A stretch of 24,777 nt of DNA from Spirogloea muscicola (Eukaryota; Streptophyta; Zygnematophyceae; Spirogloeales; Spirogloeaceae), in the NCBI GenBank assembly GCA_009602725.1, contig WELB01000075.1:28345-53121 (forward strand), written 5' to 3'. This document shows positions 1 through 22,614 of this stretch, in pieces. The position numbers were made by a program, and so were the translations under genes. Under the pieces are notes generated by a model. The model was not told the origin of the DNA, made no database searches, and saw nothing but the letters and a program-made list of their open reading frames with translations. How positions within the stretch are numbered: position 1 is the stretch's first letter; the number at the start of each line of letters is the position of its first letter.

Positions 1-222
1 TTGCACCGCCGCGCTGGTCGCGCCCTTGCAGCAGCCTCTGGCTTGCGCAGCGGGGTTGCTCTTCCTCCCCTCAGCTCATCTGACTTCCTACTGCTGACAC
101 GGGGGTATTGAGGGCGCCCTGTCTGCCTAGCCTTTGGCTCCGTCATGAACACCTGTATGCATCTGGCTGGCATTTCACAGCCGATTCTTTCATATCAGCA
201 GCCGCTTTCTTTCTTTTTCTCC
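1..222 (+). mobile_element. LINE family B, 5'-truncated 3' end
   Basis: The frame open from base 1 encodes the last 36 codons of a LINE protein (LHRRAGRALAAASG ... SDFLLLTRGY) and stops at TGA 109-111. The 3' UTR follows, with the hairpin GGCTGGC/CACAGCC near 165-183 and a terminal TTTCTTTCTTTTT tract near 205-222. The element is cut by the window edge, so its true 5' extent is unknown. It lies about 80 bases past the F-box gene stop and points toward it. Bases 108-215 are almost identical to 10328-10425, which suggests a recent origin. Confidence 0.8.
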
Positions 223-302
223 CTATCCTTTGCCTTCTCCCCCGTCTCGGCGAGGCTCGGAGGCCAATTGCAACCCCCCCCCTTTCTTTTGCCCCCTCGG
301 CT

Positions 303-3300
303 TCACGGGTGGCCCGCCGCCGCCAGCGCCTCCGCCAGCGCGTCGGGGCAGCCCTGCGCGTGCAGGCGCCGCAGGCTCGGGCAGCGCAGGCGCAGCGCGC
401 CCCCGCCGGGCTCCAGGTTGCAGCAGCCGTTGAGGTTCAGGTCCACCAGGCTCCCGCACTCCAGCTCCAAGGCCTGCACGCTCGCGCCCCGCGCCGCCGC
501 TTGTCAGCGCGGCCGCCCCGCCTCCTTCCCGCGGGCCGGCCCCACGGTCGCGCGGGTGCCGCTGCCTCTCACCCGCAGGCCGGCGCAGCCCCACAGGCTG
601 AGCTGCCGCAGGCTCGCGCTGCGCAGCTTCAGCTCCGCTCCCCCCCGCCCGTCGTCGCGGGGCTTCTCCCCGCCGCTCTTGGCCCCGCCGCCGACGACGC
701 GCGCCCGCGTGGCCCTCGTCAGCCTGCCTCCGTTGTGGTCGCCGTCCACCAGCTGCTGCAGGGGCGGCCGGGACTCCCCGCTCTCCCCCGTGTCCTTGTC
801 CGGCGGCCGCGCGGCAACCAGCGTGTGCCCGCAGTCCAGGAGGCTCAGGTGAGGCAATGCCCTCACAGCCACCTCTATCCCGCTCACCGTCAGCCTGGGG
901 CAGGCTGCTACCAGCAGCTTCTGCAGGCTGCGGGCATTCGAGCGGCTGCACCCAAGCAAGAGGGACAAGCGTCAGTGCTGGTGCTGCTCTCCACCTTGGC
1001 CACACGAAATTGGTGTTTAGCAACACCGTGCAAAGGTGAAGCGCATGCCGAGGTACCTGACACGGCACACAGAGACATTGCAGGAAGGGCAGGGACGATA
1101 AGCAAGCCCAGCGCCTGACGCAATGAACAACCTCAAGTGTGGCTCCTTGTGACGACCTAGAACAGCAAGGGTGCGCAAGCAGGAACTCAACGTGCACGGC
1201 TTCGACAGACTGTGGTGCTGGACTTGCTCATCCGCCACGGGTGTTGCATAGCCACAGCGGTTATTGCTGGTCATGTGAGACGAGCTGATGACTTGGGACA
1301 TGTACGCGGACATGGCGGGTTTATGAGGGGCTCAGACCCACCAGAGGTTGTGCAGTGTGCAGTCTGTGATGACATTGCAGCCACTGAGGTCGACGAGTGT
1401 CAGATTCGTACACCTGCCAGTGATCCTCTCGATCAGAGCTGCCAAACACACAGCCCAGTCATGTCAGTGAGAGCACCTTCCGCCAGGATGCTCTTTCATT
1501 CCTTGCAGCTACATAGGCAAGCCCGAAGAAAGGCCGCCACTGTAACAATGATGCTGACGATGCAGATGGGGCAAGGATCTGCAGGGCACCTGCAAGCTGT
1601 GAGGCGCATACCATCAGTGAAGGACGACAGCGTCAGTGACAGCGCTTGGAGGTTCGCGGGGGAGTGGTCAAGCAGGGCCTGCGTTACCTGGCCACAGGAC
1701 GCATGCACCAGTGAATACGTGGAGCATCACTACTGAAGACAATCTGTGTAATATCTTGCCAGTATTTCACTTCCTCCACTGTCGGAGGATGAGGCTGACA
1801 AGTGTGACAACAGCCAAGGGGGTGATGCAATTGTCATGGCACAGCAGCAGAGAAGCTTCCCCCGGCATTGATCCGACAAGTCACTGTGCATGACATTGGC
1901 GTGAGGACAAAGGAGACCCAGAGAAGCAGACCTTGTCACAACTGGCTGTGACAAAGCAAAAGTGGAGGCGAGCCAAGGAGGGGCACTGTAGGACAATCTG
2001 TGAGCCAAGCCACAGCATGTCGAACAGGCCCATGACGAAGCTCTTAGTGGTGGACGTGAAATGGTTAGCTCATCGGACTGTTGCATGCACCCGAACAGTC
2101 CCCTCGCTTACCCATCGCATATGTCAGGTTTGTCATCGTTCTGATAGTGAGCAATTTGACATTGAGCAATCGCATGGAACTCCCTGGTCGTCTAACAGCT
2201 GACTGCACCTGCTGCAGGCTTGGTTGCGACGATCCTGCATTGCTTCTGAGGCTTGACAGATTGATTGTGGGGGCCAGGTCCCTGGGCAGTAGGCTCACGG
2301 CCACCTCCTGCAGGCCAGCACACCTGAGCTCCAGCTGTTGTAGCCCTGTGCACGCGGCCAGGTGCAGTACCTGCAGACTGGTGTTGCAGGCCAAAGACTC
2401 AAACACAAGCGTCAGGTACAGCAGGTATATTGCTCACTGCTGCTGAGACTGTCAAGAGGAACGACCAACGCATCGGCCTGACAGTACACCCAACGTTCAA
2501 GCTCACATGATCCTGGACGACACAGGCCATGCAGCGCGTGGGCAAGCAGCCACCTGGAGCTTTCAAGATTGATGGAGGTCACAGAGCTGCATGCGTCTAG
2601 CCGCAGCTCCTCCAGCTGGCTGCAAGAGTGCACGAAGCACCCCACTCCTTCCCTGGGAGTTGGACGTGCAATGCAGTCAATGTCCTGCCACTTGTGCCGG
2701 CGCCTTGCCGCAAGGATACTGGACAAGGAGCAGCATAGTGGCAGGCCGTGACTCAAGCTTGCTCTTGACTCAGTGGTGCCTACCTCTCTGTGTCTTTCCT
2801 TCATGCCAAGACTAGCATCCTGAACCGCACGAGGGGCTGGGTGCAGAGGAGGGGGAGAAGGGGGCGGGTGGAGGGTGGGGGGGATGCGAACCCCGTTATT
2901 GCACAGGTGCTGGATGGGCTGACGTGAATGGACAGAGCACGCAGCGTCGGGCGCACTTCTCCAATCCTTTTCAGCAGCACATCGTCTACAGGCCTGCGGC
3001 CGAAACAACAGGGGCACTGCCCGATTCATGTGTTGGAGGTGGGAGCGTGGTAATGGCAGGGGGAGGGGCATCTAAGCGGACGGGTGCGCCCCTCAATGTG
3101 ACGCTGTACTTACAGCATCTGCATGCTTGAAACAGGTTAGCATTTTGAGAAAGAGATGGCCCACAACCTGAGGGCGTTGAGAGCAAGGCGGGAGAGGGCA
3201 GAACAGCGCTTCAGTATGAAGAGGACGTAGGACAATGGCGGTGTCTGGTCTCCCACCACCAGAGTAACCTCCTGGATGGAGTTCCTGCTTGCACACGAGT

Positions 3301-4282
3301 CATTGGGAAGGCAAGAAGGGCCAATGCTCCTTGTCACCAGCCAAACTCTTGGAGATCACATATGTACTGCTCGGGCAGTAGCAGCTGGGTGGAGCCTCCT
3401 CAAGGGTGGTGCTGATTGGCAGGTCCTGGAGGCACACACGTACCAGACGACCTGTACCAGTCGCCGCCAGCGCCGACAGCAACGACTGGCAGCCAGGAGA
3501 TCCTGCGGTGCGAGCTGCAAGCAGGCAAGGAAGCGGAGGCAGCGCATGAGCGCAGTGAGACTCTGAAGTCGTCGCGAAAATACTGCACATTTATCGTTAA
3601 CCGCCCTCAGCTCCCGCAGTGGTGAGTCAGAGGTGCTGGCTCTGGGCTTGGGGTGCAACGGGAGAAGGTGATGAATGCCGCCGAAAACCTTCGATCTCGC
3701 GGGCAGAAAGGCCCTCTGCGCCACCATTGGTGCTGCCACCGAAGCCGTAGGCCCAAGACCGTACCTTGGACAGGATGGCCAGCATGCACGTGTCTTGGGA
3801 CGATGGCTGCCCGGCCGCGGCCCTCGAGCGAGTCTGTGATGGAGCTGGCTCGGGATTCGCGCCGGCCAGGCTGGGCGACCCCTCGCAGCTGTGGGGGCTC
3901 GGAATGGGCAGCGGGGAGCTGGGCTGCGACGCGCCCGACTGCTCGCTGCGGGCCAGAATGCGATGCAGCTCTGAGTCAGCAGCGTGGCGGCCGGGCGGGC
4001 CAAGGGGACGAGCGGCCTTGGAGGACGGGGCAAGTCCGAGATCCCTCCCCTCGGTCCCGCCGGAGTTGCCCAGAGTGACGGCGCATTGTGCCGGCGGCGG
4101 TGGCGGCGGCGATCACCTGCAGGCGGAGGAGTGGAAGAGGCGGAGCCGGGGCGGGCAGGGCCCCGGCGTGGCCACGTCGGGCAGCGGGCCCCGGCGGCCG
4201 GGCAGGGAGGGCGAGGGCGAGGGCAGCGGCGGCGCATGGCGGGCGTCGGCGCATGGCGGCCGGGGCGGAGCCGGGAGGCCAT
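303..4282 (-). CDS. F-box / leucine-rich-repeat protein (FBXL/AMN1-like), at least 10 exons
   Basis: Probable substrate receptor of an SCF ubiquitin ligase. I spliced the exons by hand; every junction is GT-AG and keeps phase. In coding order they are: (5' part)-3765, 3514-3444, 3284-3168, 2993-2892, 2718-2554, 2377-2209, 1687-1612, 1438-1342, 945-573 and 473-303, with TGA at 305-303. The F-box is split across the first two certain exons (MLAILSK then LAPQDLLAASRCCRRWRRL). Cysteine-rich LRRs follow, for example CSQLEELRLDACSSVT, CTNLTLVDLSGCNVITD and CGSLVDLNLNGC. A low-complexity charged insert near 820-640 (DKDTGESGES ... GGAKSGGEKPRD) interrupts the last LRRs. The 5' end is unresolved: ATG 4282-4280 in GGCCATGG context, with donor GTGATC near 4113, is only a provisional start. 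From 3514 onward the protein is 446 residues. The family call is firm; the individual substrate is unknown. Confidence 0.85.
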
Positions 4283-4792: not shown

Positions 4793-5118
4793 ACTCCCAT
4801 TCGCTGCAGTTCTTGCATGTCTGTGTGCTTTTGGCGCCTCTCGGCCCTTTGGACCTGCGGTCCACGCGCGCGCTGGCCGTGCTATGGCTGCTGCTTCCGG
4901 GTCTCGGCAGAGTGCCGCTTTTCCTGCTCCGAGTTACTCTGATCTGCTGTTGCTCACACGTGGCTACTAAGAATCCAATCTGCATCTCCCTCTGCACCGT
5001 CTAGCACTTTGTAGTGTAGTCCTTTTCCGGCACTTCTTCTTTGGCTTTGAACATTGTCCATTCTTTTTGGTTTGGCTTTGCCAGCCCCTCTTCTCTATGG
5101 GCGGGCACTTTCTCTGTT
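4793..5118 (+). mobile_element. LINE family A2, C-terminus plus 3' UTR
   Basis: The C-terminal frame reads RAMAAASGSRQSAAF ... SDLLLLTRGY and ends at TAA 4968-4970. The 3' UTR carries TGTAGTCCTTTTCCGGCAC, ACATTGTCCATTC, the hairpin GGCTTTGCCAGCC and the closing GGGCGGGCACTTTC. Bases 5119-5380 hold only another hairpin-like GGCTGGCCTCTCACAAGCC near 5143 and no gene. Confidence 0.75.
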
Positions 5119-5380: not shown

Positions 5381-5700
5381 CCGACTTGAGAAGATCGCAA
5401 GTCTAGGGTATGCACGACGTGAGGATATGCTTCCAGCCGAGTTGGGCATGCCGGCAGCTTATATATCATTTCTGCAATATCGTGTTTCGGCCTGTTTGCA
5501 GCGAGCTCAGGCTCATGCTTTGCACCAGAAAGCTGGTTGAGCCTTAGCTGGTGGCACATGGGCTTGTCGATTGCCGTCCACCATTTGGTATCAGTCAGCG
5601 AAGTGCTGACTCGTGATTACTGAGCGGCTGGCTAAGCAGCAGATGATGTACATGTCTGAATGTGCTTGCCTTGGTACTTTGCCACTCAGGCCCTTGACCC
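5381..5700 (+). mobile_element. LINE family C, C-terminus plus 3' UTR
   Basis: The frame reads YARREDMLPAELGMPAAY, then VSACLQRAQAHALHQKAG, an in-frame TGA, and finally SEVLTRDY with TGA at 5621-5623. Downstream is a family-specific UTR (GCTTGCCTTGGTACTTTG) ending in GGCC-type inverted repeats. Related copies lie at 9060-9375 and, in reverse, at 14785-15095. Confidence 0.7.
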
Positions 5701-6189: not shown

Positions 6190-6438
6190 ACGTCGTCCAC
6201 ACGCGAGCAGGCCGTGTTATAGCTGCTGCCTCAGGGTCTCGGCGGAGTGCCTCTTTCCCTGCAGCGAACTACTCTTACTTGATGTTGCTCACTCGCGGGT
6301 ACTGAGCTTCCCTCCGCAACGTCTCGTGTTTTGTAGTGTAGTCCTTTTTCGGCACCTTTTTCTTTGGTTTTGGACATTGTCCATTCTTTTTGGGCTGGCT
6401 TTGCTAGCCCCCATTCTCTATGGGCGAGCACTTTCCTT
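6190..6438 (+). mobile_element. LINE family A2, C-terminus plus 3' UTR
   Basis: The frame RAGRVIAAASGSRRSASF ... YLMLLTRGY ends with TGA 6303-6305. It is followed by the A2 UTR: TTTGTAGTGTAGTCC, GGACATTGTCC, the terminal hairpin and GGGCGAGCACTTTCC. Confidence 0.75.
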
Positions 6439-6547: not shown

Positions 6548-6670
6548 CTTTCTGGTAATTGCAGCAGCGAGCTACTCCGACTTGATGTTGCTCACTCGCG
6601 GGTACTGAGAATCCCTCTGCATCGTCTTGTATTTTGTCCTGTTTTGTGGTGTAGTCCTTTCTCCAGTCAA
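6548..6670 (+). mobile_element. LINE family A2, short truncated copy
   Basis: Retains SDLMLLTRGY and stop near 6606, then the start of the A2 UTR to GTGTAGTCCTTTC. It is interrupted before the terminal hairpin. Bases 6670-6828 have no recognised content beyond short GC-rich stretches. Confidence 0.6.
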
Positions 6671-6828
6671 TCTGGCCGCGCTTTCTTTTTCGGCACCTCT
6701 TTGCGGAGGAGCTCCGGGCATCCTTCCCCTCCCTGGTACCCTCTTTTCCATTGGGGTACGGTCAGCCCAGCGACCTCCCCTGGCGGACAAGGGGTGATCG
6801 AGCGGGCACGCGGCAAGGGGAGAAGAAG

Positions 6829-6925
6829 GAAAGCAGCTACAAATCACTCAGTAACCCCTGCTAAGCAGCCGCAAATCAGAGAGGCTAGGGTCCTGGAAGT
6901 GGGTCCCCTGGACAGAGCCAGAGGA
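6829..6925 (-). mobile_element. inverted LINE family A1 C-terminal fragment
   Basis: Read on the minus strand it encodes a segment ending SDLRLLSRGY plus stop, nearly the same as the C-terminus at 8650-8747. It ends exactly where the plus-strand RT fragment begins, giving a head-on inverted junction. Confidence 0.6.
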
Positions 6926-6926
6926 A

Positions 6927-8747
6927 GGGGACCCCCTCGCCGGCTTCTTCTTTGCGCTCGCTCACCACCGGGCTCTGCAGGCTACCGCGGCGGCACACCC
7001 AGAAGTCCTACTCCCCACCTTCGCGGACGACACCACCATAGTCGTCCCTCCGGAAGACGTGGCGGCGGCCTTCGTCACCTTTGAGCTGCAGCTGGCCACC
7101 CTCGGCCTGTCCACCCGGGCGTCGAAGTGCGCGGCTTGGTCTCCCTGCGGCCTCCCATTCACCCTGACGCTGCCCACCGGCTGCCAGACTCCAGCAGATG
7201 GCTTCACCCTGCTGGGTGGCCCCATCGGCGCGCCGTCCTTCGTGGAGGGGCAGCTGCGAGCTCGCCTTGCGGAGCATCTTCAGCCTGCGGCCCAGCTTCC
7301 CGAGCTGGACAATTATGCAGCTGTCGTTGGCCGTGCTGACCAAGGCCATTGGGCAGCGGCTCCAGTAAGTGACGCGGGCCACTCCGCCGTCTCCAGGGGC
7401 GTTGGCGGCGTACGCGGATTTTGACGCAGGCATGGTGGCGAGCTTGGCGGCCCTGGTCCGCCACCAGGGCTTCCTCCAGTCGCCAGCCTGGACCAGGCTG
7501 GCGACTGGATCCATCCAGTCGCCAGGCGGCGCCACCCCTCAGCCACCGTGGTCTCGGCCTGCGCCCGCTCGCCCGTTCTTGCCGGGCTGCATACCTCGGC
7601 AGCTGGGCGCAGACTGCCGCCTCCGTGGCCCAGCGCTTCATGGTCCACGGCCGGCATGCACTGGAGCAGGCGGTGGTGGAGGTCAACATGGGCGCGCTGC
7701 CGTTCCAGGTGTCGCTGCGCTCTGCCCACCAGGAGCTGCTCGCGGCGCACCCGGACCTGGCAGGCCAGGCGGTCTCCTTTGCGCACATCGTGCACACCGC
7801 TGACCTGCACGTCCAGGCGCGCTTCGCGGCCGTGATCGACAAGGCCGCCTACACCACCACCGTGCTGCAGCTCCCCGAGGCCGACTTGCGCGGGCGCGCG
7901 AGACTTCAATTGGCCTCCTCCCGGGGGGCAGCGGCGTGGCTTCAGGCCCTCCCCATCAATGACGCCCTCACCCTCCCCGATGAGGTATTTCGCACTGCCG
8001 TCCACCGGCTCCTGGGACTGCCGCCTCCATGTCTCCAGGGCGTGCGTCAGTGTGCATGCGGCGAGCGAGGGGCCGAGTCTGGGGAGCTGGCTGCTCATGT
8101 TCTGCACTGCGCCCACGGCGGCGAGCGGACAGCGGCCCACGACCGCCTCCGTGATGCGATGCATGGCATCCTGGTGGCGGCTGGCTTGTCGGTGGCAGCG
8201 GAGCACTCCGGCGTCATGCCGCTCCAGGAAAGGGCCGACGGTCTCAACGCCCGTCGCGTAGACATGGTGGCCACCCCACATGGCCACCCCACAGGCCGGC
8301 GGGCCCCGTCTTCTCCTGGACGCGGTGACACCGACGCATACGACAGCTCACACCCAGCCCAATGTAAAACCAAGGTTTGGTATGCGGTCGCTTGCGCTGC
8401 TCGGGCTAAAGAGCTCAAGTACGCCGACCATCCGCTGGAAGACGAGTTCTTCCCGTTGGCAATTGACACCCATGGGGTGCTGGGCGCTCGGTGACTCGAG
8501 CTGCTCACCCAGCTCGCCCGCCACACCATCGCCCGTCGCTTCCATGGGGAGCCGGTAGACTTACCTGCAGCCGGGTTGCTAGCGCAAGTTTATCGTATGC
8601 TCTGGCCGTCTCCTGCAGAGGTCTATGGCCCGCGTGCTGCACCTTCGTGCCGGCAGAGCCCTCGCTGCTGCCTCTGGCTCTGGCCAGGGGACCCACTTCC
8701 AGGAGCCTAGCATCTCTGATCTGCGGCTGCTTAGCAGGGGTTACTGA
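6927..8747 (+). pseudogene. LINE (family A1) reverse transcriptase fragment, broken
   Basis: The longest retroelement piece. It opens at GDPLAGFFFALAHH (the QGDPL-type RT motif), then FADD at 7020-7031 (catalytic Asp pair of RT) and LSTRASKCAAW. The frame shifts between about 7300 and 7560 and resumes with GLGLRPL and AAYLGSWAQTAASVAQRF. A Cys/His motif follows (CACGERG ... HVLHC), then HDRLRDAMHGILVAAGLSV and RRVDMVATPHG. These resemble the C-terminal endonuclease-like region seen in several LINE groups; that subgroup call is inference. Next come FFPLAIDTHG and an in-frame TGA at 8492-8494. Homologous sequence continues (LARHTIARRFHGEPVDLPAA), with one more shift before GRALAAASGSGQ and SDLRLLSRGY, TGA 8745-8747. 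The RT N-terminus and ORF1 are missing. Non-functional as it stands. Confidence 0.8.
7475..7509. repeat. 17-bp perfect inverted repeat inside the LINE
   Basis: Arms 7475-7491 and 7493-7509 are exact reverse complements around a single central A. A partial third copy (TCCAGTCGCCAG) follows near 7516. The local reading frame is disrupted here. Confidence 0.85.
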
Positions 8748-8950
8748 GTGATTCGTAGCTGCTTTGTTTCTTTGTGTGCTTGTTTTTCTTAGCGCTTCCC
8801 CTGGCCCCCTTCTCGTACTCTGTTCATTCGTTTTTGGGCTGGCTTTTCGAGCCCCTATCCTCAATGGGCGAGCTCTTTCTTCTTTCTTTGGCATTGGACA
8901 TTGTCCATTCCTTTTGCGCTGGCTTTGCCAGCCCCTCTTCTCTATGGGCC
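8748..8950 (+). mobile_element. LINE 3' UTR (A1) followed by an A2 tail
   Basis: Directly after the RT fragment stop comes the A1 UTR (GCGCTTCCCCTGGCCCCC, TCGTACTCTGTTCATTC, hairpin GGGCTGGCTTTTCGAGCCCC, CTCAATGGGCGAGC, then TTTCTTCTTTC to about 8888). A second, A2-type tail abuts it (GGACATTGTCC, GGCTTTGCCAGCC, TCTATGGGC). Two tails in tandem indicate insertion of one element at the end of another. Confidence 0.75.
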
Positions 8951-9059
8951 GTATTCCGTGTTATGTAGCCCTGTTTAGTTTGCCATAGACTCTGCCTGAA
9001 CAATGTATCGGCTTGAATTGGCCTCCAGTTCATTTCATGCGCCCCGCGCGCCTTCTCTC

Positions 9060-9375
9060 TATGGGCGAGCATTCTCTTTCTGTGCAGATGTGTTTCCGGC
9101 TGACATGGGCTTGCCAGCTGCCTATCTGTCGCTCTTGCGACGACAAGTTTCGGCCTGTTTGCAGCGTGCTCAGGCTAGTGCCTTGCACCAGAAAGCTGGG
9201 CGAGCTCTAGTTGGTAGCAGAAGGGCTCCGTTTCTGCATCTGGTATTCATGCATCGAGTAGTGACCTTTATGTTTTGACCCGTGGTTATTTTGAGCGGGT
9301 CAATCTGCTGTAGGTTATGTAGATCTTCAGATGTGCTTGCCTTGTACTTGGCCATTTGGCCTACATTTCTTTCTA
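9060..9375 (+). mobile_element. LINE family C, C-terminus plus 3' UTR
   Basis: Encodes DVFPADMGLPAAYLSLLRRQ and VSACLQRAQASALHQKAG. The end is decayed (VLTRGY-like near 9285). The UTR has GCTTGCCTTGTACTTGGCC ATTTGGCC near 9330-9360. The stretch just before it (about 8990-9030, TTGAATTGGCC) is a separate repeat shared with 21056-21110. Confidence 0.7.
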
Positions 9376-9399
9376 ATACACGAAATTCTCTCTTTTTGG

Positions 9400-9760
9400 A
9401 GAAAGTGCTCGCCTTGAGGATAGGGGCTGGAAAAGAAGAAGAAAAATGAGCTCGCCCATAGACGAGGGGCTGGCAGAAGCCAGCCAAAAAAGAATGGACA
9501 AAATCCAAAGAGCTACTGGAGAATCACTCAGTAACCTCTGCTAAGCAGCCGCAGGTCGGAGATGCTAGGCTCGTTGAAGTGGGTCCCCTGGCCAGAGCTA
9601 GATAGGAAGTGCTCGCCCATTGAGAATAGGGGCTGGAAAAGCCAGCCCAAAAAAGAATGAACAAAGGACGAGAAGGGGGCCAGGAAGAAATAGCTACAGG
9701 AGAATCACTCAGTAACCTCTGCTAAGCAGCCGCAGGTCGGAGATGCTAGGCCAGAGGCAG
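9400..9760 (-). mobile_element. tandem nested LINE family A copies
   Basis: On the minus strand there are two successive copies, each with SDLRLLSRGY, stop, and A1 or A2 tail blocks. Near 9430 a TTC-type tract joins directly to TTTTCCAGCCCC, the second half of another copy's terminal hairpin. One element therefore inserted inside another's tail. Confidence 0.7.
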
Positions 9761-9764: not shown

Positions 9765-10130
9765 GAATAAGAAGGTGCTCGCCCATTGAGAAAAGGGGCT
9801 GGCAAAGCCAACCCAGAAAGAATGGACAATGTTCAAAGCCAAAGAAAGAGGTGCTGGAAAAGGACTACACTACAAAGTGCAAGATGGTGCAGAGGGAGAT
9901 GCAGATGGCTGCTCAGTATCCACGTGTGAGCAACAGCAGATCAGAGCAGCGAGGGCTCTGCCGGCACGAAGGTGCAACGCCCGGGCCATAGACCTGTGCA
10001 GCGAGACGGCCAGGCGCATTCGATACACTTGCGCCAGCGACCCGACTGCAGGAAAGTCGACCGGCTCCCCACGGAAGCGACGGGCGATGGTGTGGCGGGC
10101 GAGCTGGGCGGGCGAGCTGGGGGGCTGGAA
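9765..10130 (-). mobile_element. LINE family A2, C-terminus plus 3' UTR
   Basis: Minus-strand coding remnant: HTIARRFRGEPVDFPAVG, LAQVYRMRLAVSLHRSMA, ALHLRAGRALAA, then after a shift SDLLLLTRGY. The A2 UTR and terminal hairpin follow. It aligns with the end of the longer RT copy at 8495-8747 but differs clearly in the UTR. A short duplication (CCAGCTCGCCCG) is visible near 10105-10120. Confidence 0.75.
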
Positions 10131-10325
10131 AAGAAGAAAGTGCTCGCCCATTGAGAATAGGGGCTGGAACAACCAGCCCGAAAAAGAATGAACAGAGTAC
10201 GAGAAGGGGGCCAGGGGAAGCGCTAAGTAACAGAAACAAAAGCTGCTACGAGCTGGAAAAGCCAGCCCAAAAAAGAATGAGCAAAGTACGAGAAGGGGGC
10301 CAGGGGAAGCGCTAAGGAAAGAGTC
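10131..10325 (-). mobile_element. two LINE family A1 tails
   Basis: Two reverse-oriented A1 tails (10131-10225 and about 10250-10320) share GCCAGCCCAAAAAAGAATGA and GTACGAGAAGGGGGCCAGG. The first begins with a GAAGAA tract (the TTC tail read in reverse). Confidence 0.7.
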
Positions 10326-10327
10326 CT

Positions 10328-10432
10328 ATCTGCCTAGCCTTTGGCTCCGTCATGAACACCTGTATGCATCTGGCTGGCATTTCACAGCCGATTCTTTCAT
10401 ATCAGCAGCCGCTTTCTTTCTTTTTTTTGAAG
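10328..10432 (+). mobile_element. LINE family B tail, near-identical to the copy at the left edge
   Basis: 3' UTR only, from CTGCCTAGCCTTTGGCTCCG through the hairpin GGCTGGC/CACAGCC to TTTCTTTCTTTTTTTT. By eye I find no difference from 112-215 in the body. Confidence 0.8.
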
Positions 10433-13200: not shown

Positions 13201-13204
13201 CTGT

Positions 13205-13400
13205 ATAACGCTACTGGAGTGCATACCGAGGAAGCTTTGAAGTGCATCTCAATATGCGGAGCCGCAGCTAGGCAGCTCAGGGCCTTCCTGTTACCCCCCC
13301 CCCGTGTCAGCAAGAGGAGCTCTACATGAGCTGCGGGGAGGAAAGCCAGAGGCTGCAGCGGTGGCACAGTTGCCGCAGCGGTGCTAGGCAAGCGATTGGT
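13205..13400 (-). mobile_element. degenerate LINE family B end
   Basis: On the minus strand, FLPAAHVELLLLTRG and a run of G near 13300 correspond to the B copy's LLLTRGY-stop. They are followed by a diverged CTGCCTAGCTGCGGCTCCG. Older and more decayed than the copies at 1-222 and 19375-19620. Confidence 0.5.
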
Positions 13401-13614
13401 ACCAGTGGAGAAACATGGGGAGACGCACTCAGCAGTACAACCCTGGACCCAAGGCATGGCGCCTCCAGATAATGCTGCACTGTCAGCGACGCCGCTGGTC
13501 AGCTTGAGAGGCCAGGAGCAAAAGTACCGAGGACCACCAAGGCTCGCAACACCCGTGGATAACCATGGCCAGCGGGTAGAAGGTATCGCAAGCGTGGTGG
13601 TTTCTTGGCCACCT

Positions 13615-13854
13615 TCACAATATAGCCAACTTAGGATGGACAGGGCCCCCTCCCTTCAGAACCTGATGCTGATACAAGTTCGTCAGGAGCTGCTCGCCTT
13701 CCAAGGGAATGCCCACCAGGTCAACAAGCCTAATTCGAACAACACGGCTGCGGAGTTGCACAGGCACCCCATACAGAACCACTTCAATACCGCCTCCAGT
13801 ACGATGCCGTACATAACATCGAGCAAGAGGTTGTGAGAGCGAGTTCATGAGCAC
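13615..13854 (-). pseudogene. open frame of unknown origin
   Basis: A 79-residue minus-strand frame with protein-like character: VVLYGVPVQLRSRVVRIRLV, then DLVGIPLEGEQLLTNLYQHQ. I do not recognise it. It sits among LINE debris, and the VxLxGVP start is reminiscent of ORF1-type RNA-binding domains, but that is speculation. No splice sites were identified. Confidence 0.3.
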
Positions 13855-14001
13855 CTGAGCTCATGGGCGCCTATGCTCAAGGCACTGTGCTTAATGAGGC
13901 TGCATTTGAAGAAGAGAACACGGCTGACATTAGGCCAGCTGTGAAAGCCAGAGGGAGTATGGGATTTACAGTACACTAGATAGCCTCCCCAGAAAAGGTA
14001 A

Positions 14002-14217
14002 TCAAGATGGCCGCGCATAGCATCGTCTTAAGCGTTTGTCCAGCTGCAACCCCCGCACTAGAGGCAAGGCATGGAGCCACTCAGACACGGCAACACATAA
14101 AAGGCGGGCCTGGCCACTGAGCATCCCTTGACGAGCACCTCGCCGTCGGCTCGATTGGCTGCTCATACTGCAGCGATGGGCCGTGACTGAGCTTTCAGAG
14201 AGCGACTCTACTGCCAC
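14002..14217 (-). pseudogene. possible RT fragment
   Basis: The minus-strand frame contains RRGARQGMLSGQARLLCVAV then SEWLHALP. Its spacing recalls the GxRQGxPLSxLLF motif of LINE reverse transcriptases. The catalytic FADD/YADD motif is not seen downstream. It belongs to a different copy from the fragment at 6927. Confidence 0.35.
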
Positions 14218-14289
14218 CTCTCACACCCGTCGGCCCCGTTAGAAGAGCTTCTCTTCTTCTTCTCCGACTCCGTGTGCAAGGTGCACTTT

Positions 14290-14420
14290 CCCTCCGACCT
14301 TGTTGCATTGCCAGCCCTTCAGATATTGGGACAGCTTCAAATGCCTTGGTGTGATAATCCAATCTAATGAACTATGCCGAGCTGTAAGGTGGGCTAGTTC
14401 CCAAGGGGCAGGGTTTGGCT
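14290..14420 (+). pseudogene. possible RT thumb-region fragment
   Basis: The plus-strand frame DSFKCLGVIIQSNELCRAVR resembles the FKYLGV block that follows the catalytic motif in LINE reverse transcriptases. It is short and isolated; the call rests on this one motif. Confidence 0.3.
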
Positions 14421-14499
14421 GGAGGCTGTCACTGTGAGTATTTACAGCACATCAAAGCCAACAAAGAGCGCCACATCTGCAGAAGATTCTGCAGATGGG

Positions 14500-14610
14500 G
14501 GCGATGGCTGTGTAGGCCAGCCCCGAGTGAAAGACAAGGTGGAAAGGGGCCGGCAAGCGCCAAAGAGGGTGCTGAATAACCCCTGGTCAGCAGCCGCAAG
14601 GTGGAGTAGC
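14500..14610 (-). mobile_element. LINE C-terminal and tail remnant
   Basis: Minus strand: STLRLLTRGY near 14592-14565, with the stop lost, then a short UTR with the hairpin-like GGGGCTGGCCTACACAGCC near 14525-14507. A further subfamily or a badly decayed copy. Confidence 0.5.
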
Positions 14611-14784
14611 TTGCAGCGTAAAGAAGGTGCTCAGTACGCATGCAACGAGAGGGAAGTCAAGCAAGCCAGCTCGATTGAATCATAGGAAACCAAGAAACGT
14701 TCAGAGGGGCGGAAAGCAAATATCGTGTATTTGGAAGGAGGAGCTCTGCCCAAGTGAGCGAGAAATGGAGTCATGTGTTGAGTC

Positions 14785-15095
14785 ATGGAGGGCCTGAGTG
14801 GTCAAGTACAAAGGCAAGCACATCAACAGTAGATACATCACCTGCTGCTCAGCTGGCCCGCTCAATGGACACATTTAACACATGGAGGTCGTTAAATGAT
14901 GCCCGCATTCCGGACGGCATATGACAAGCCCTTCTACCACCAGCTAAAGCTCGACCATGCTGGTGCAAAGCATGAGCCTAACGTCGCTTCAACTGACAGA
15001 AAACGACAACATGCTGCCAGCATGCCCATCTCGGCTGGAAGCAAATCTCGTCGTGCATATACAAGAACTTGCACGAGCAAGGTCTGAGGAAAACC
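14785..15095 (-). mobile_element. LINE family C, reverse copy
   Basis: The coding part near 15080-14935 reads YARRDLLPAEMGMLAACCRF and then decays. The UTR near 14880-14785 has TGTGCTTGCCTTTGTACTTG and ends with CCACTCAGGCC, as in the plus-strand copies at 5381 and 9060. Confidence 0.65.
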
Positions 15096-15139
15096 AACCA
15101 ACAAAGAGAAAGATGAATAAGGCGGCAGCCTATTCTTAA

Positions 15140-15300
15140 GGGGCGGCTTGTAATAAAACAAGCCGAGTGCATACAGGAAAGTAATAGCTCCTATGGTAAG
15201 GCAACGACTGTGAGAGGCCAGCCCAAAGGTATAAATGAGGAAGGGAAGAAGACTCTTCCAGTAGAGGGCGTGCTTGGCCAGCTCAGGAACACGATAAACA
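15140..15300 (-). mobile_element. LINE tail, type D, with small hairpin
   Basis: Reverse CCCTCTACTGGAAGAGTC and GGGCTGGCCTCTCACAGTC mark the tail. A perfect small hairpin, GGCTTGT/ACAAGCC with loop AATAAA, lies near 15147-15166. No gene in 15300-15505; AGTAGTATAGC occurs twice there. Confidence 0.5.
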
Positions 15301-15505
15301 AAAGACGATGAGCCAGAAGAGCGCTTAAGTGCCCAGCGACTCCTAGTGGTACGCAACGTTCCCTACTGAGCAGCAGCAGGTTCGTGAATCTAGTCTCCGG
15401 AAGGAAAGTAGTATAGCGCTTACTTGAAAAGAAACAGTAGTATAGCAGTTATAGAAGCTTCGTGACACGATGCATAGACACTGCCAGCGACGGCCCCCTC
15501 CCGCC

Positions 15506-16468
15506 ATGGCCGCGGCGGGCTTCAACCAGGGCCCTGCGTGGGCGGCGGCCGCGCCGCGCGCCGCTTGGGCGTTCCTGGAGGCCCACGGCTGGCCCCTCCT
15601 CGCCCTCCTCCTCCTTGCCGCCCTCCTCCTCCCCCGCCTCCGCGCCGCCGCCACCCGCCTGCGCCCCGCCGGTAGGCGTTGCTCCGCCCGCCCACATCTA
15701 CCTCGCTAAGCTCGCCCTGCGGGACCCTCCTCTTATGCCCGCGAGCCGTGCCGTCCCTTGTTCCAGATGGCACCAAGGCAGCAGCATACGCAGAGGGGAT
15801 TCGGCGGGCGAGGGACGCGCAGCAAGCGGAGCTGGAGCGCCAGCGGGTGGAGCGTGCCGAGCGCTTGGCTCAGCAGGAGCAAGAGGAAGACGCCCGTCAC
15901 CGTGCGCACCGCCTGGAGGAGCTGGACCGCAAGGCCACGCGCCTGGGCTTTCGGCCACGAGGCAAGGGTCAGCGACTAGGGACGCCAGAGGATGATCTTC
16001 CGGTGCGTCTCCCTGCCAGAAGTCTTGGCCACACAGTAGGCTGTTGTCGCCCTTAGCTTCGTCAGGTTCAGGTCCAACTCCAGCGCCATATTGTTGCTGG
16101 GATGGTGCAGATTACTGGAGATGGAAAGCGTGAGGATCTTGATGATGGTGACGGCGAAGTAGGAAGCTGGAGTGGGAGCCATAACCCGGCGCCTGCGACT
16201 ACAACCGTACCTGCGAGGCCGCGTGGCACGCTCCTTCCAGGTGCCGCTCTGCAGCTGATGGGCTCGCTTTTGACATCTTGGGTCACCCTCCGCACCCAAG
16301 CCCGCACACAATTTGCAGCTCATTGTCCTCTGTGCTAGCCATGAGGCAGTCGCAGCGCTCGTGCCACTCTGGTCTGCAGGAGGGTACAGTCCGATGAGAG
16401 AGCGAGGGCACATATTCACGTACCGACCTTCGCAACGCATCAGGAATCCCCAACCTGGCCGACTATAA
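15506..16468 (+). CDS. selenoprotein S / VIMP-like ER membrane protein (no Sec)
   Basis: Likely ER-membrane adaptor of the SELENOS/VIMP family, which in animals links p97/VCP to the ERAD retrotranslocation machinery. Exon 1 is 15506-15671, exon 2 15767-16002, the last exon 16380-16468 (TAA 16466-16468). Phase needs either a 19-base micro-exon 16111-16129 (total 169 residues) or an earlier exon 2 donor at 15968 (total 151 residues). Order of features: short lumenal N-terminus with FLEAHGW, one transmembrane helix (PLLALLLLAALLLPRL, about residues 29-45), then a charged coiled coil (AELERQRVERAERLAQQEQE and EELDRKATRLGFRPRGKG). The end, GYSPMRERGHIFTYRPSQR, corresponds to the GYNPL ... WRP end of SELENOS. 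No in-frame TGA/Sec is used. The family call rests on architecture and these short motifs. Confidence 0.7.
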
Positions 16469-16479
16469 CCCTCCCTTCG

Positions 16480-17160
16480 TCTGATGTGATTACGCTGCTC
16501 TTCTGAGCAAATTCATCGGCGTCCAAGGATGGTGAGTAAGCTCAGACCGTCAGGCACCCGCACTCACATTCTTGAGGTTCTTCTCTTGCCTTGTTTTGGA
16601 AGGGTCCAGGTGGCAGTAAGGCCATCTTACAGTCTCTCGCCCTGCAGATGCATCCTCATTTGACTCTCTTGAGTCTGTGTCTTTATGCAGCCAAATATAT
16701 CTTGTGCTACTTTGCCTCCACTTGTACACGGGCGATTCAAATGCCCACTGATACATATTTCATAAGTGGTTGGTCCACCATGAGGAAGCTGTGCAGTCTA
16801 AGAAAGCAGCTGACACCGATGGACACGGCCGCAGGCTCCAAGTTTTGGTCTGAGCAATTGCTTGCTACAGCTGCTAGTGTAGAGGGTAGGTTACAGAAGT
16901 GAGCTGTTTGACCTCGCCCTTCAGGTAGTGACACCAGCTCGAGACGGTCCGATGCTGCATCTTCACAGCACCGCAAAGAGGCCAATGCCAGGCTCCGTGT
17001 GTCCACAAAGTGTGAGCATGCGTTCCACTTTTTTGGTGCGCTCCATTTTTTGGCATTATCGGCATTTAGCGTACCCTTGCAGGTGTGTCGAGTTGCCGAT
17101 TACAGGTGCAAATCTCGGTGTTAGCAATTTGCACCACTCAGTACAAGGATGGTTGAGGGA
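16480..17160 (+). other. unresolved possible spliced exons between convergent genes
   Basis: This gap between two convergent genes contains several good splice signals. They include the donor GTGAGTAAG near 16531, the acceptor after TTTTGGAAG near 16602, and a pair that joins FWSEQLLATAASVEG to SDTSSRRSDAASSQHRKEAN in phase (donor near 16887, acceptor near 16924). The frame could continue to a TGA near 17156. No family is recognised, and the sequence could equally be the two 3' UTRs. Confidence 0.25.
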
Positions 17161-17253: not shown

Positions 17254-18986
17254 TCAGAGAGGAGGGAGTGACTTGCGGATCCATTCTCGAAAGTCTCTGG
17301 CTTCATCAGGGTGAAAGCGATGGATTTGTTCAGGCCCCCTCCGAAAGGTACATGACACACCTGCCTCCTTCAGCAGGTCCCTACCCACCTCCCCACACCT
17401 GAAGTCCACAACGCGGTCCTGGTCGCCATGACTCCACCAGAGAGGAGTATCCTGTACCGGTATGCGAGGTGTTATGTTGAGCTGTCAGTCAGCCACAACA
17501 GAAGGCCGCAGCTAACAGCTAGCAACGAAAACAACATAGATCAGAAGGGTCCTGGTCTAGGCTTGACTTCTTTGCGACCTGCATAAATTGCCTGGTATGT
17601 GCGATTTAGCTTCAGGGGGAAACTATAGCTCAAACTGCATGTATCTGCAGCCTTGACTAATTGTAATGACCGGAAGTCCCAACCATGACACAATGCATCC
17701 CCAGTAAGAGAATAGGCTGGCGCATTTGGAGTCCTAGGCCATAGGAGTGCCAAGACGTGACAGAAGGCAATGAGCACGTGCCTGCGCCTCAGGCGAGACG
17801 AGGGAGAGGAAGGTGGAGTTGGGGAGCGGCACCCAGCCCCAGAGTACAGCTGCACCAGCAAGCTTGTGGGGGTAAAGCATGGAGCTCATGAGCGTCAAGG
17901 CACCCCCTTGGCTGAATCCCGCCACCACCATCCTTTGCATTTGCAAGAGGAGACAGGCTGTCAACTGGCTGACCACACCCGCAGAGTATGGCGGTGCAAG
18001 TTCACCGGCAAGAAATCGCTGACGGAATCGTCAAAAGTGTAGCACAAAAGCCCTGTTACCTGTGGTGCTCAATGCCAGCAAGTGCTTGGGCCTTGAGCAG
18101 CGAGTGCACTGTCCGCACTGCAGCAATGACATCTGCAATACAGAGGACAGACCTTTGCATGAACTGTGCGAGCATCTGCTGCTGCTGCTGCTTGGAGTTG
18201 GGCCCTGCTTGCAGTACTGCACTGGTGGCCACGCACAGGTCTCACAGCAGGACTCACCCTCCTGCTTGGAGGGAGGTGAGTCCGCCTTCACAGGAATGAC
18301 AGGCATGTCGAACCACGAGGGTATGACCTCCCCGCGGTTGCAGGTCACCGCCTGCTCCGGTGCTGCGATCCAGAGGCCCGTGGGCATCAGCAGGCTGAAG
18401 GGTGTGCAGACAAACTCTGGAGGCCCATCAAGCTCTGCCACTCTTGAACGGTGACGCAGGAGAGCCCTCACGCATGCCAGGAGGTCCACTGCGTCAGTGA
18501 AGAGGGGGAGTCTCAGGGGGACTGCATCGTTGGGTGCAGCCAGCTACCGGCAGGATGGAGCCACTTGATGTGGCCGAATGCGGGGTCCGTGTGCATGTCC
18601 TTGGCGTACGAGCGATCGTTGCCGGGGCGAGAGCCCAGGCCGTGAAGCCAGACCACCAGGGCGGTGTGTTGGGCAACCGCGGGTGCGCCGCTTGCCCCTG
18701 GCAGCTGAGTGGCGGCCTGGGCCCCGGGGCCGAGCCCCTCGGACGACTGCACGACCACGGAGCCGGACTCGTCCTCGACGGTCTCGGCGGTGGCGTCCGC
18801 CTTGGCGCGCGCGGCGCCGAGCGGGGCGGCAGTGCCGCTGGCATCGCCGAGGGAAGCGGCGGGGCGCGCGGAGCGCAGGTAGAGGGCGGCGGTGGCGGAG
18901 AGGGCGAGGGCGAGGACGAGGGCGAGGGCGGCGTGGCGGCGCAGGCGCTCGCTCCTAAGGCGGCGAGGCCAGGGGTCCGGCAGCAT
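17254..18986 (-). CDS. acyl-protein thioesterase (LYPLA/APT family), membrane-anchored, 5 exons
   Basis: Serine hydrolase of the alpha/beta fold. Family members remove palmitate from proteins or hydrolyse lysophospholipids. Exons in coding order: 18986-18548, 18362-18258, 18132-18060, 17932-17800, 17481-17254 (TGA 17256-17254), 325 residues; the last intron's ends are the least certain. The basic N-terminus is followed by a hydrophobic segment (ALALVLALALSATAALYL, about residues 20-37) and a roughly 70-residue linker. These precede the core, so the protein is much longer than the usual ~230 residues. Core motifs: VVWLHGLG (oxyanion region), APEQAVTC and PSWFDMPV, GFSQGGAL (nucleophile Ser), LWGWVPLP, WWSHGDQDRVVDF (catalytic Asp) and IHRFHPDE (catalytic His). 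The N-terminal helix predicts membrane anchoring. Confidence 0.88.
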
Positions 18987-19154
18987 GGTGGCGGCGGCGG
19001 TGGGGGTGGGCGGGGCAGAGACGGGGAGCCGGGGAGGCGGCGCGGCGGGGCGAGCGCGGTGGTGGAGCCGGCAGGCGGCCGGGCGGGTGGTGGCAGCCCC
19101 TGGCGGCCTCGCCGTCGTCTGTTTCTCCTCCTACTGAGGGAAATGCGTGTATAT

Positions 19155-19215: not shown

Positions 19216-19233
19216 TCACCTGCTGCACCTCCT

Positions 19234-19340
19234 ACTGAGGGCGCCCTGTCTGCCTAGCCTTTGGCTCCGTCATGAACACCTGTATGCATCTGGCTGACAG
19301 TTTACAGCCGATTTTTTAATATCAGCAGCCGCTTCCTATC
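19234..19340 (+). mobile_element. LINE family B tail
   Basis: From GGGCGCCCTGTCTGCCTAG to the terminal ATATCAGCAGCCGCTT. The hairpin is slightly diverged (GGCTGACAGTTTACAGCC). Confidence 0.75.
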
Positions 19341-19374
19341 CTACTCCGAATGCGTTGGTCTATGTGCCTACAGC

Positions 19375-19620
19375 AATCGCTTTGCATCGCCGGGCTGGTC
19401 GCGCCCTTGCAGCAGCCTCTGGTTTGCGCAGCGGGGTTGCTCTTCCTCACCTCAGCAGCAGGAAGTCAGATGAAAAAGCTCATCTAACTTCCTACTGCTG
19501 ACACGGGGGTTTTGAGGGCGCCCTGTCTGCCTAGCCTTTGGCTCCGTCATGAACACCTGTATGCATCTGGCTGGCAGTTCACAGCCGATTCTTTAGTATC
19601 AGCAGCCGCTCATCCTACTC
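19375..19620 (+). mobile_element. LINE family B, C-terminus plus 3' UTR
   Basis: Encodes LHRRAGRALAAASGLRSG and, after a disrupted region with a fold-back (separate entry), the family C-terminus ending LLLTRGF at TGA near 19514. The full B tail follows, to ATCAGCAGCCGCT. Confidence 0.75.
19453..19500. repeat. 21-bp imperfect fold-back inside a LINE B copy
   Basis: Arms 19453-19473 and 19480-19500 are reverse complements with 2 mismatches, around the 6-base loop AAAAGC. Intact B copies (1-111, 19800-19917) have only the right arm, so the left arm is an added inverted copy. Confidence 0.8.
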
Positions 19621-19654
19621 CCGACCAGCAGCAGGGCCGGCAACAGGGTGCAGC

Positions 19655-19715
19655 CCTTCCCTTTTGGGCTGACTTTTCCAGCCCCAATCCTCAATGGGCG
19701 AGCACTTTCTTCTTC
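19655..19715 (+). mobile_element. LINE family A1 tail, very short
   Basis: Contains only the hairpin (GGGCTGACTTTTCCAGCCCC), CTCAATGGGCGAGC and ACTTTCTTCTTCTTTC. About 60 bases remain, an extreme 5' truncation ending in the TTC tract. Confidence 0.7.
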
Positions 19716-19744
19716 TTTCTTCCCGGTGGCTCGGTGCCTTTGGG

Positions 19745-19917
19745 TCTTGTGTCCTGCTGCCGATTGCGTTTGTCTATGTCCCTACAGCGGTCCTAAGCGC
19801 TTGCTTTGCACCGCCGCTCTGGTCGCGCCCTTGCAGCAGCCACTGGCTTGTGTAGCGGGGTTGCTCTTCCTCCCCTCAGCTCATCTGACTTCCTACTGCT
19901 GACACGGGGGTACTAAG
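19745..19917 (+). mobile_element. LINE family B C-terminus with an in-frame stop
   Basis: The frame reads LRLSMSLQRS, TAA, ALALHRRSGRALAAATG, then PPLSSSDFLLLTRGY with TAA 19915-19917. Its 3' UTR is cut off by the reverse A-family copy that follows. Confidence 0.7.
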
Positions 19918-20036
19918 AAGAATGAGCTCGCCCATAGAAGAGAGGGGCTGGCAGAAGCCAGCCAAAAAAGAATGGACAAATTCCATAGAGCTACAGGAGA
20001 ATGACTCAGTAACCTCTGCTAAGCAGCCGCAGGTCT
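19918..20036 (-). mobile_element. LINE family A copy inserted at the end of a B copy
   Basis: Reverse orientation: GAAGAATGAGCTCGCCCATAG, GGGGCTGGCAGAAGCCAGCC and GAATGGACAAATTCC, then the coding end (stop plus LRLLSR, near 20005-20030). It resembles 9440-9570 closely. Confidence 0.65.
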
Positions 20037-20290
20037 AAGAGCGCCCTGGCTGCCTAGCCTCTGGCTCCGTCATGAACACCTGTGTGCATCGGCTGGCTTT
20101 CACAGCCTCTCATTTTACATCAGCAGCCGCTGTCAATACTTCATCCCTCCTGCTGCTGACACGGGGACACTAGTAGCGCCGTGACTGCCTTTGGCTCCGC
20201 TAAACTTGTCATGAACACCCTCTGTGTGCACCTGGCTGGCTTCTTCACAGCCACTCTCTTGATGTCAATAGCCGCGTTCTTTCTCTCTAT
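20037..20290 (+). mobile_element. two LINE family B tails
   Basis: The first (20037-20137) carries CTGGCTCCGTCATGAACACC and GGCTGGCTTTCACAGCC. The second (20138-20290) starts at LLLTRGH plus stop (TAG near 20170) and has a diverged UTR (GGCTGGCTTCTTCACAGCC, GATGTCAATAGCCGC), ending in TTCTTTCTCTCT. Confidence 0.65.
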
Positions 20291-20950: not shown

Positions 20951-21055
20951 TTTGAAGCTGTACAGCGCTAGCTGACTCTGAAAGCAAGGCGGTCACGACC
21001 CACCGGAGCCCGCCCTCCGTTTCTCGGAGAGCAAAGAAGGCGCGCTGTGCGCATG

Positions 21056-21110
21056 GAATGAATGAGGCCAATTCAAGCCAATACATTGTTCAGGCTAAAG
21101 CTAGTGCAGA
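21056..21110 (-). repeat. dispersed repeat shared with 8990-9040
   Basis: The minus-strand GCCTGAACAATGTATTGGCT and TTGAATTGGCC match plus-strand 8996-9028 with one visible difference. Type unknown; probably another retroelement 3' UTR. Confidence 0.5.
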
Positions 21111-21454
21111 AAATTTTTCTACATGAAACGAAGCCCTATGCTAAGGTGGCTAAGGAAACAGTGTGACGTTAGTACCTACGGGTGAGCACAAGCTAATTTG
21201 GGGAGCCGGAGCGCCGCCACAGATGCCGGTGGCTTGTTCATCAGCGCGCCGAGCACGCTGATGAATAGCCAAAGCTTGCCAGCGCTGCAAAGTCAAGCAA
21301 AAGCCGCATTATGGAAGTTGCAACTAATGCTTGCGGAATGCTAGTGTGGCCCAAGCTGCACCCCCGACTTTGGTGACGCGCGTCAACCACTTAGGCCAGA
21401 TGGCTAGATGAGGGAGGACCAGTGTCGTCTGCCATTCTGGGCCCTTCAAACCTT

Positions 21455-21950
21455 TGTCCTATCTTTTTGGGCTGGCTTTGCCAGCCCCTCTTCTCTACGG
21501 GCGAGCACTTTTGCCCCCATTGGGAGAACCAGTTCTACCATAGTAAGGCGGGGAAGGATGGGTCGCAAGGCGGCCGGGGCCGCGTGGGGTCGGTAAGTAC
21601 CCAGACGAAGAAGAAAGTGCTCGCCCATCGAGGATAGGGGCTGGAAAAGCCAGCCCAAAAAAGAATGAACAGAGTACAAGAAGGGGGCCAGGCAGGAGAC
21701 GGACAGCCTGGACCCCAAGGGCCGCGTCGCTCACTGGCGCCCGGCTCGCTGGCAGCCCACGTGGCCGACATTCGCCCCGCCGGGCACCAGCAAGGTCACC
21801 GTTGACGCACTGCCCCAGCCTTCAAAGACGAAAGTGCTCGCCCACGCTCAAAGCGATGCAGCCTTTCTTTGAACATTGTCCATTCTTTTTGGGTTGGCTT
21901 TGCCAGCCCCTTTTCTCAATGGGCGAGCACCTTCTTTCCCGACCCGGCGG
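21455..21950. mobile_element. cluster of family A tails in both orientations
   Basis: A plus A2 tail (about 21460-21515), a minus A1 tail with a GAAGAAG tract (21605-21690), a minus tail start (GAAAGTGCTCGCCCA, 21830) and a plus A2 tail (21865-21945). Between them, 21695-21830 holds a GC-rich open stretch (GRVAHWRPARWQPTWPTFAP) of unknown origin. Confidence 0.6.
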
Positions 21951-22614
21951 CCGTGCGCGTCTGGCCGGCGCGAAATAGAGCCCTTCCACCATGGCACACA
22001 GTGCAATCACATCTTCCTGCTCTGGCAAACGTGGCATTCTCCTGCAACTTCAAGCGCAATGCTAGTATGAGGTGGTCTTTGTCCTGCTCGACGTGCTTCG
22101 GTTTACATAGCCACAGCATTTGCTGTCCATCATCTTCCCCGGTCCTCCAAACCCCCCCTCCCCCCTCCCCAGATTTATTNCCCCCCCCCAAAAATATTAA
22201 CTCCTTCCCTTGCTTTGTACCCCGCGCGTCCCTCACTGTCCTCCACTGTAGCCCCCTGATGCTTCCAGTCAGTTCCTGCTCCCTCTCACAGATGCATGCC
22301 CGCTCAGTCAGCAGCATCAGAATATTGAATATGCAGCTTATCTCGCCGTAAGTGCTGCAGGCTGATGCCTTCCAGACAGTGCTCGCTCCTAGCGAGGATC
22401 AGAGCAATGGCAGTGGGCCTATTCGCAGGACTACCAGGACAAGCTCTGCATGAAAGCTCAGGGCTCCCGAACACGTCCACAAGCGGAGTGGCGCGGATGA
22501 TCTTCGCTGGTCCATGGTACTTTGACTTATCATGCTCCACAGGCCACATTAGCGGGCTACCATCCCCGAGCTAGCAAGCCATTGGCATCTGATGCCAACT
22601 CTCAGATGCCTTGA

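Follow-up and report, generated by a model that had tools for sequence, protein, structure and literature searches.

In R2, a long interspersed nuclear element (LINE), the superdomain of reverse transcriptase, linker, and endonuclease is compact and the restriction-like endonuclease (RLE) forms the C-terminal domain (PMC10499050, PMC5678591); in R2-type LINEs, the first lysine of the KX2KY motif is the catalytic residue (PMC5678591). R2 protein has been used with C-terminal fusions (PMC12180492); these and all later sources are cited here from excerpts. We analyzed a 24,777-nt stretch of the Spirogloea muscicola genome (contig WELB01000075.1:28,345-53,121, forward strand; hereafter the window), in which the remains of many LINEs end in a common ten-residue peptide placed directly before the stop codon (hereafter the tag). 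We consider it probable that a group of related, dispersed R2-like LINEs has the tag as the natural end of its large protein, and that several families inherited it and hold it by purifying selection on the protein.

The families were given the letters A, B, C, E, F, G, and H, which are labels coined in this analysis. Searching the 153 Mb genome (471 contigs) with the C-termini of all seven returned 9,293-16,713 rough first-look candidates each, of which 150 each were scored. The same genome codes for LHCII-type antenna proteins whose matches lie in the green lineage. The consensus tail was S-D-[LF]-x-[LV]-L-[TS]-R-[GT]-Y-stop, with the individual forms SDFLLLTRGY (A), SDLRLLSRGY (B), SDLLLLTRGY (C), SDLYVLTRGY (E), SDLHLLTRGY (F), SDLRLLTRTY (G), and SDLFVLTRGY (H). 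It closes the long open reading frames (ORFs) of A, B, C, F, and H and was seen at the C-termini of E and G, and is thus not confined to a single family. The long frames extended from before the reverse transcriptase (RT) to the C-terminus and spanned 1278 codons in A (L019), 1328 in B (L018, L025), 1130 in C (L022; 955 in the shorter L024), 1196 in F (L093), and 1292 in H (L097); they were read from stop to stop, and these lengths are therefore not counted from true starts. A 28-nt B tag had 1,022 exact matches in the genome, with those listed lying on contigs C1 to C11, while its reversed control had none.

Because the first copies had been found with tag queries, a second sample was drawn by RT. 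With the family A RT as query, 150 of 1,366 candidates were scored (62-100% identity to A), and the expected ORF ends were fetched for 20 copies hand-picked for long frames and spread of identity. The tag was present in all 17 copies that reached the C-terminus, in one of them in altered form (SDLMSLTRGY, L117). The remaining three were not readable to the end: one was all N (L102), one lost similarity before the conserved basic block described below (L110), and one entered an inverted C-like stretch (L111). The 17 copies are not independent cases because they represent only about six family types (five H-like, five C-like, four F-like, plus single copies of A, of B, and of a new type). They added the tags SDMHVLTRGY (L109) and SDLMLLTRGY (L113-L115, L118).

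We next compared replacement and synonymous change, using uncorrected Nei-Gojobori proportions of nonsynonymous (pN) and synonymous (pS) differences. Across the last 75 codons of the seven families (21 non-independent pairs), the tag had a pS of 0.79 and a pN of 0.21, and the basic block 0.73 and 0.23. The linker joining the two had 0.77 and 0.52, and the region before the block 0.70 and 0.51. The ORF-wide scan covered 1,094 core columns of the five long ORFs (A, B, C, F, H) in 1,085 ten-codon windows. Here the pN of the tag was 0.130, with only 36 windows at or below it. Conservation of the tag is thus comparable to that of the ADDTT window in the RT (0.137) and weaker than that of the RQGDP window (0.094). 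The pS of the tag was 0.775 versus 0.682 for the core, with 952 of the windows at or below the tag. Among A, B, and C alone, tag pN ranged from 0.05 to 0.17, and tag pS was 0.83, 0.87 and, for B-C, 0.51. Codon classes also switch within the tag, including serine (TCN/AGT), arginine (CGN/AGG), threonine/serine (ACN/AGC), and leucine. The combination of high pS, codon-class switches, and low pN places the purifying selection on the tag peptide and not on the DNA. Dead copies do not retain the tag, as expected and as shown by the decayed endings of old window copies (GF, GH, RDY, and GGG).

From their build, the window tags belong to 3' ends of dispersed R2-group LINEs of the RLE type, the RLE assignment being read from a motif. 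The nearest solved proteins by sequence in the Protein Data Bank (PDB) were R2 retrotransposon proteins, and Pfam RVT_1 matched A (E 3e-17), B (E 8.3e-16), and C (E 2e-11). A Pfam search at E up to 1 found no apurinic/apyrimidinic endonuclease (APE) or RNase H family in A, B, or C. Reading by eye, we located the KX2KY motif as KLHKY in A, KELKY in B and F, and KERKY in C, with KERHY in H; the proline of the endonuclease PD is replaced. No endonuclease family of Pfam matched A, B, or C, nor did the match to the PDB profile extend to the RLE. A candidate knuckle, C-E-C-G..H-[MV]-L-R-C, precedes the endonuclease in all five long ORFs. An invariant C-x2-C-x12-H-x3-C lies in the N-terminal part, with Pfam finger models reaching E 0.09-0.4 in B only, below the cut-off. 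The endonuclease is followed by the conserved basic block YRMRL-x3-LQRS-x-A-x-A-x-H-x-RAGRAL, which is probably helical. Next come the linker, about 12 residues long and little conserved, and finally the tail of ten residues.

These elements resemble R2 (Bombyx mori and bird R2, with HERO, NeSL, and R4 as sister clades) in an R2-matching RT, a C-terminal endonuclease with KX2KY (PMC5678591), a short 3' untranslated region (UTR), and target duplications in some copies (L054, L071, L087), and would also resemble it in the candidate N-terminal Cys/His finger and knuckle. Knuckle spacing differs, being C-x-C-x12-H-x3-C in A and B as opposed to CX2-3CX7-8HX4C in R2 (PMC5678591). The excerpts on R2 do not mention the tag. 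Whereas R2 is specific to ribosomal DNA (rDNA), these elements are dispersed: the flanks at 49 junctions were unlike, and no single 28S rDNA site emerged. The APE endonuclease and poly(A) tail are features of Zepp and the L1 clade, and neither was seen here, with no APE match in A, B, or C and with CTTTCTT-like ends lacking poly(A) in the copies shown. Clustering of LINEs in green algal genomes is common to both, but Zepp-like elements belong to the L1 LINEs and form their clusters at centromeres (PMC8226300), whereas those described here are dispersed and bear an RLE. Dualen/RandI are likewise green-lineage LINEs with an RLE, and RandI tails are carried by short interspersed nuclear elements, one with (CTTT)n (PMC3747384), similar to the CTTTCTT ends here. 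Dualen, however, has both APE and RLE, and RNase H has been reported from Dualen/RandI (PMC4640811), unlike A, B, and C here, which have no Pfam match to APE or RNase H at E up to 1.

We regard the tag as a real but modest clade-level C-terminal signature in what appear to be otherwise familiar RLE LINEs. With tblastn, neither viral_contigs (23 pattern matches) nor genome_contigs (70), which are not eukaryotic collections, gave a relative outside this genome. A description of the tag was not found among the titles and abstract openings listed by searches of open-access full text, a scope that leaves out subscription journals and Repbase. The string LLTRGY did not occur in the full texts searched, and for LLSRGY and RAGRALAAASG there was no description of a tag among the matches listed.

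The likeliest role of the tag would be docking, as a C-terminus bound by the endonuclease superdomain. The hydrophobic tail, ending in a free carboxylate, would fold back over the flexible linker and dock on the endonuclease/linker/thumb superdomain or on a putative partner. Docking could then fix the basic block where contact with nucleic acid is possible. The UTRs changed faster, perhaps since template choice would need only their 3' end. R2 proteins are in use with C-terminal fusions; if the free end matters here, this LINE group therefore differs from R2. As R2 is being developed for gene insertion (PMC12180492), LINEs with a selected free C-terminus would make a useful contrast. The tag also offers a sharply bounded, ten-residue target for mutation, set off from the enzyme by a loose linker. 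Beyond the tag, what we see is ordinary retrotransposon evolution.

Several points limit this reading. The selection figures rest on ten codons and on pairs that are not independent, and the basic block, like a number of internal windows, is conserved to about the same degree as the tag. E and G were read at the C-terminus only, their interiors being N, and the RT-chosen copies were hand-picked and of few family types. The natural end of L110 was not readable, its similarity ending before the block. Distant LINEs without the tag may exist, as all scored RT candidates were at least 62% identical to A. Finally, the families are homologous along the whole ORF, with core protein identities of 49-70% among A, B, C, F, and H, such that shared ends are to be expected. 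The tag could then merely be a trace of common ancestry under no special constraint. This explanation fares best among the alternatives, although we consider it unlikely. Outside the short linker, A has nearly saturated synonymous change relative to both B and C (pS 0.69-0.87). Moreover, the tag is conserved although the linker and the stretch ahead of the block are not, and few windows of the ORF are equally constrained.

A more doubtful proposal is that a clade-wide C-terminal peptide acts from the terminating ribosome, through a pause at the stop codon that favors cis binding of the nascent protein to its own 3' end, or that its free carboxylate switches the endonuclease/RT machine. With either, LINE retrotransposition would be controlled in a way that is new. 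In a specific and still less probable version, the last ten residues are a nascent-chain signal that pauses the terminating ribosome while the protein binds a nearby 3' hairpin of its own mRNA, giving cis preference. The protein-level constraint, the fixed place at the stop, and UTRs of only 98-148 nt would fit this version, and the variable stretch upstream of the tag would occupy the ribosome exit tunnel. However, we know of no arrest peptide resembling the tag, and only B and C have a clear hairpin, in that their UTR ends folded clearly better than shuffles (z -3.6 and -2.5); those of A, E, F, G, and H did not (z -0.4 to -1.8).

The original prediction held that the families differ completely in their 3' UTRs. 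This was only partly right: A, E, and H showed no clear similarity to the others (A-G was marginal, scoring 26 against a shuffle maximum of 24), but a GGGCTGG-type hairpin module at the 3' terminus is common to B, C, F, and G, with pairwise local scores of 29-80, each above all 200 shuffles. The 3' ends finish in short CT-rich tails. Hence, only A stands apart among the three families said to have unrelated UTRs, B and C being joined by the module. We considered it very improbable that a single LINE family with recombined or captured UTRs gave rise to this pattern. In L054, a B UTR comes after an A copy, although as a nested insertion with a duplicated GGTATTGAG. The ORFs differ at 30-51% of core residues and do not represent one ORF with exchanged UTRs: identity was 68.5-69.5% within B/C/F, 56.5% for A/H, and 49-51% between these two groups. 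UTR similarity tracks ORF similarity in B, C, and F (and in G, judged by C-terminus only), and therefore no UTR exchange need be assumed. Unlike UTRs are accordingly a poor guide to LINE kinship. Taken by hundreds of core codons, third-position identity between B (L025) and C (L022) was 47% in the first, rose to 68-70% in the next two, and dropped to 37-44% in the final three. This contrast suggests past exchange between B and C, and leaves room for some exchange between families.

Two possibilities are the least credible. The original prediction offered a nucleic-acid constraint at the ORF/UTR boundary, such as RNA structure or a template recognition or priming signal, as an alternative to a functional C-terminal peptide. 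The tag does adjoin the stop codon, with TGA-G there in six of the seven families, but such a signal is not supported because synonymous change in the tag is not depressed and its serine, arginine, and leucine codons switch class. The peptide, which ends every readable family ORF with low pN, was the better choice. Self-targeting, by which the tag region would be abundant through LINE insertion into or beside it, was raised by L061 and by copies with insertions in tags (B in a G tag in L028, B in an A tag in L041, and the B UTR at the A stop codon in L054), and was rejected since the junctions showed no excess, with LINE sequence at the 3' junction of 18 of 49 complete copies versus 61 of 147 controls placed 100-160 bp from it (11 of 60 copies were left out owing to N or an incomplete 3' end), and abundance would not account for constraint at the protein level.

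Within the window, a six-frame scan found 11 frames ending exactly in LL[TS]RGY-stop, with stops at 109, 4968, 6303, 6606, 8745, and 19914 on the plus strand and 6850, 9530, 9711, 9915, and 20008 on the minus strand. Nine of these have the full S-D-x-x-L-L-[TS]-R-G-Y; the exceptions are at 6273 (SYLM) and 20006 (lacking S). Four decayed tags also retain a stop (LTRDY at 5606, LLTRDSGY at 4766, LLLLTRGF at 19492, and LLLLTRGH at 20150), and three LLTRG-type frames lack a stop right after the motif (6127, 14576, and 13299, all minus strand). The predicted total of at least 15 tagged copies on both strands therefore stands if variants are included, with 15 tag-like C-termini followed by a stop, but falls to nine under the strict motif. 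Twelve matches to [LV]L[TS]R[GD]Y-stop occurred, compared to 0.0 per shuffle (200 shuffles of 500-bp blocks). RAGRALAAASG had been described as shared some 20-30 residues earlier. Of the 15, five had it, or RAGRA with one residue varied, in frame about 23-33 residues before the end; the other 10 are truncated, interrupted, or frame-shifted. By BLAST against reference copies, at least five families (A, B, C, E, and H) rather than three have left 3' ends in the window, and the 15 tags come from copies of A, B, C (or C-like), and E. Matches to the seven reference 3' ends are clustered and cover 5,248 of the 24,777 bases (21.2%). The longest B copy includes an RVT_1 remnant at 6855-7424 (E 0.0014, under the curated cut-off).

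Table 1. LINE-derived features of the window, with percent identity to family reference copies.
Feature	Position	Strand	Details
Family A 3' end	1..211	+	Tag SDFLLLTRGY 79-108, stop 109-111, 3' UTR to 211; 100% to A reference
Family C 3' end	4844..5113	+	Tag SDLLLLTRGY 4938-4967, stop, UTR with 3' hairpin module; 91% to C reference
Old family E 3' end	5391..5684	+	Decayed tag ..VLTRDY-stop 5606-5623; 70% to E reference
C-like 3' end	6195..6435	+	Tag SYLMLLTRGY-stop 6273-6305; 79% to C
C-like 3' end	6568..6663	+	Tag SDLMLLTRGY-stop 6576-6608; 72% to C; tag as in RT-chosen L113-L115, L118
Family B fragment	6824..6927	-	Tag SDLRLLSRGY-stop 6880-6848; 88% to B
Family B copy, inside RT to 3' end, broken frames	6925..8883	+	Tag SDLRLLSRGY 8715-8744, stop 8745-8747, UTR to 8883; 88% to B, 1962 alignment columns
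Family H fragment, UTR only	8955..9059	+	90% to H
Family E 3' end	9084..9383	+	Tag SDLYVLTRGY 9260-9289, no stop directly after it in this copy; 94% to E
B-like 3' end with tag	9400..9602	-	Stop 9530-9528; 73% to B
B-like 3' end with tag	9604..9751	-	Stop 9711-9709; 79% to B
Family C 3' end	9769..9946	-	Tag SDLLLLTRGY, stop 9915-9913; 98% to C
Family B coding segment adjoining C copy	9945..10118	-	94% to B 3302-3474
Two family B UTR-only fragments	10132..10319	-	99% and 91% to B
Family A UTR-only fragment	10325..10418	+	99% to A
Old A-like family	13299..13840	-	Decayed tag ..LLLLTRGGG, no stop; 66% to A, 601 alignment columns
Cluster of family A 3' ends, interrupted by B/C fragments	19233..20281	+	19233-19337; 19339-19610 (..LLLLTRGF-stop); 19719-19912 (SDFLLLTRGY-stop); 20038-20134; 20148-20281 (..LLLLTRGH-stop)
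Family B fragment with tag	20004..20035	-	Stop 20008-20006; 94% over 32 nt
Old family H 3' end	21035..21389	-	75% to H, 378 alignment columns

Sixteen of the genome's strongest RVT_1 hits (loci L001-L016) were considered as LINEs and rejected; none had a tag on the coding strand, and they provided a background poor in LINEs. Many are what we take, by eye and from chromodomain-like ends, to be gypsy-type long terminal repeat (LTR) elements. LINE 3' ends made up 0.6% of the 68,220 bases at these 16 loci versus 21.2% of the window, a contrast that may reflect separate compartments for LINEs and for LTR elements. One of the loci, L012, carries a single stray tag (SDLRLLSGGY) on the strand opposite its coding strand.

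Some copies begin at recurrent points. Six of 20 A copies (L054, L056, L062, L063, L064, L065) begin near A reference positions ~3248-3258 and lack ~3275-3381; they represent a discrete, short A derivative that is probably non-autonomous. A similar start with a different junction was seen in L049. Seven of 20 C copies (L068, L075, L078, L081-L084) and the window copy at 4844 have their first position within 3154-3163 of the C reference, next to the SLQRS codons, with a B fragment inside C at this same point in L081 and L083. This start may be a hot spot of truncation or insertion, although the query began just downstream and shorter copies went unsampled. By eye, a long B copy at L018:1-478 seems to lie immediately 3' of a further B tag and within E-like sequence, as in a nested LINE array. 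Apart from LINEs, the window holds exons of a carboxylesterase/thioesterase-like gene at 17734-19130 on the minus strand, where Pfam Abhydrolase_2 matched 17734-18030 (E 3.1e-08, over the cut-off) and 18512-19130 (E 0.0012, below it).

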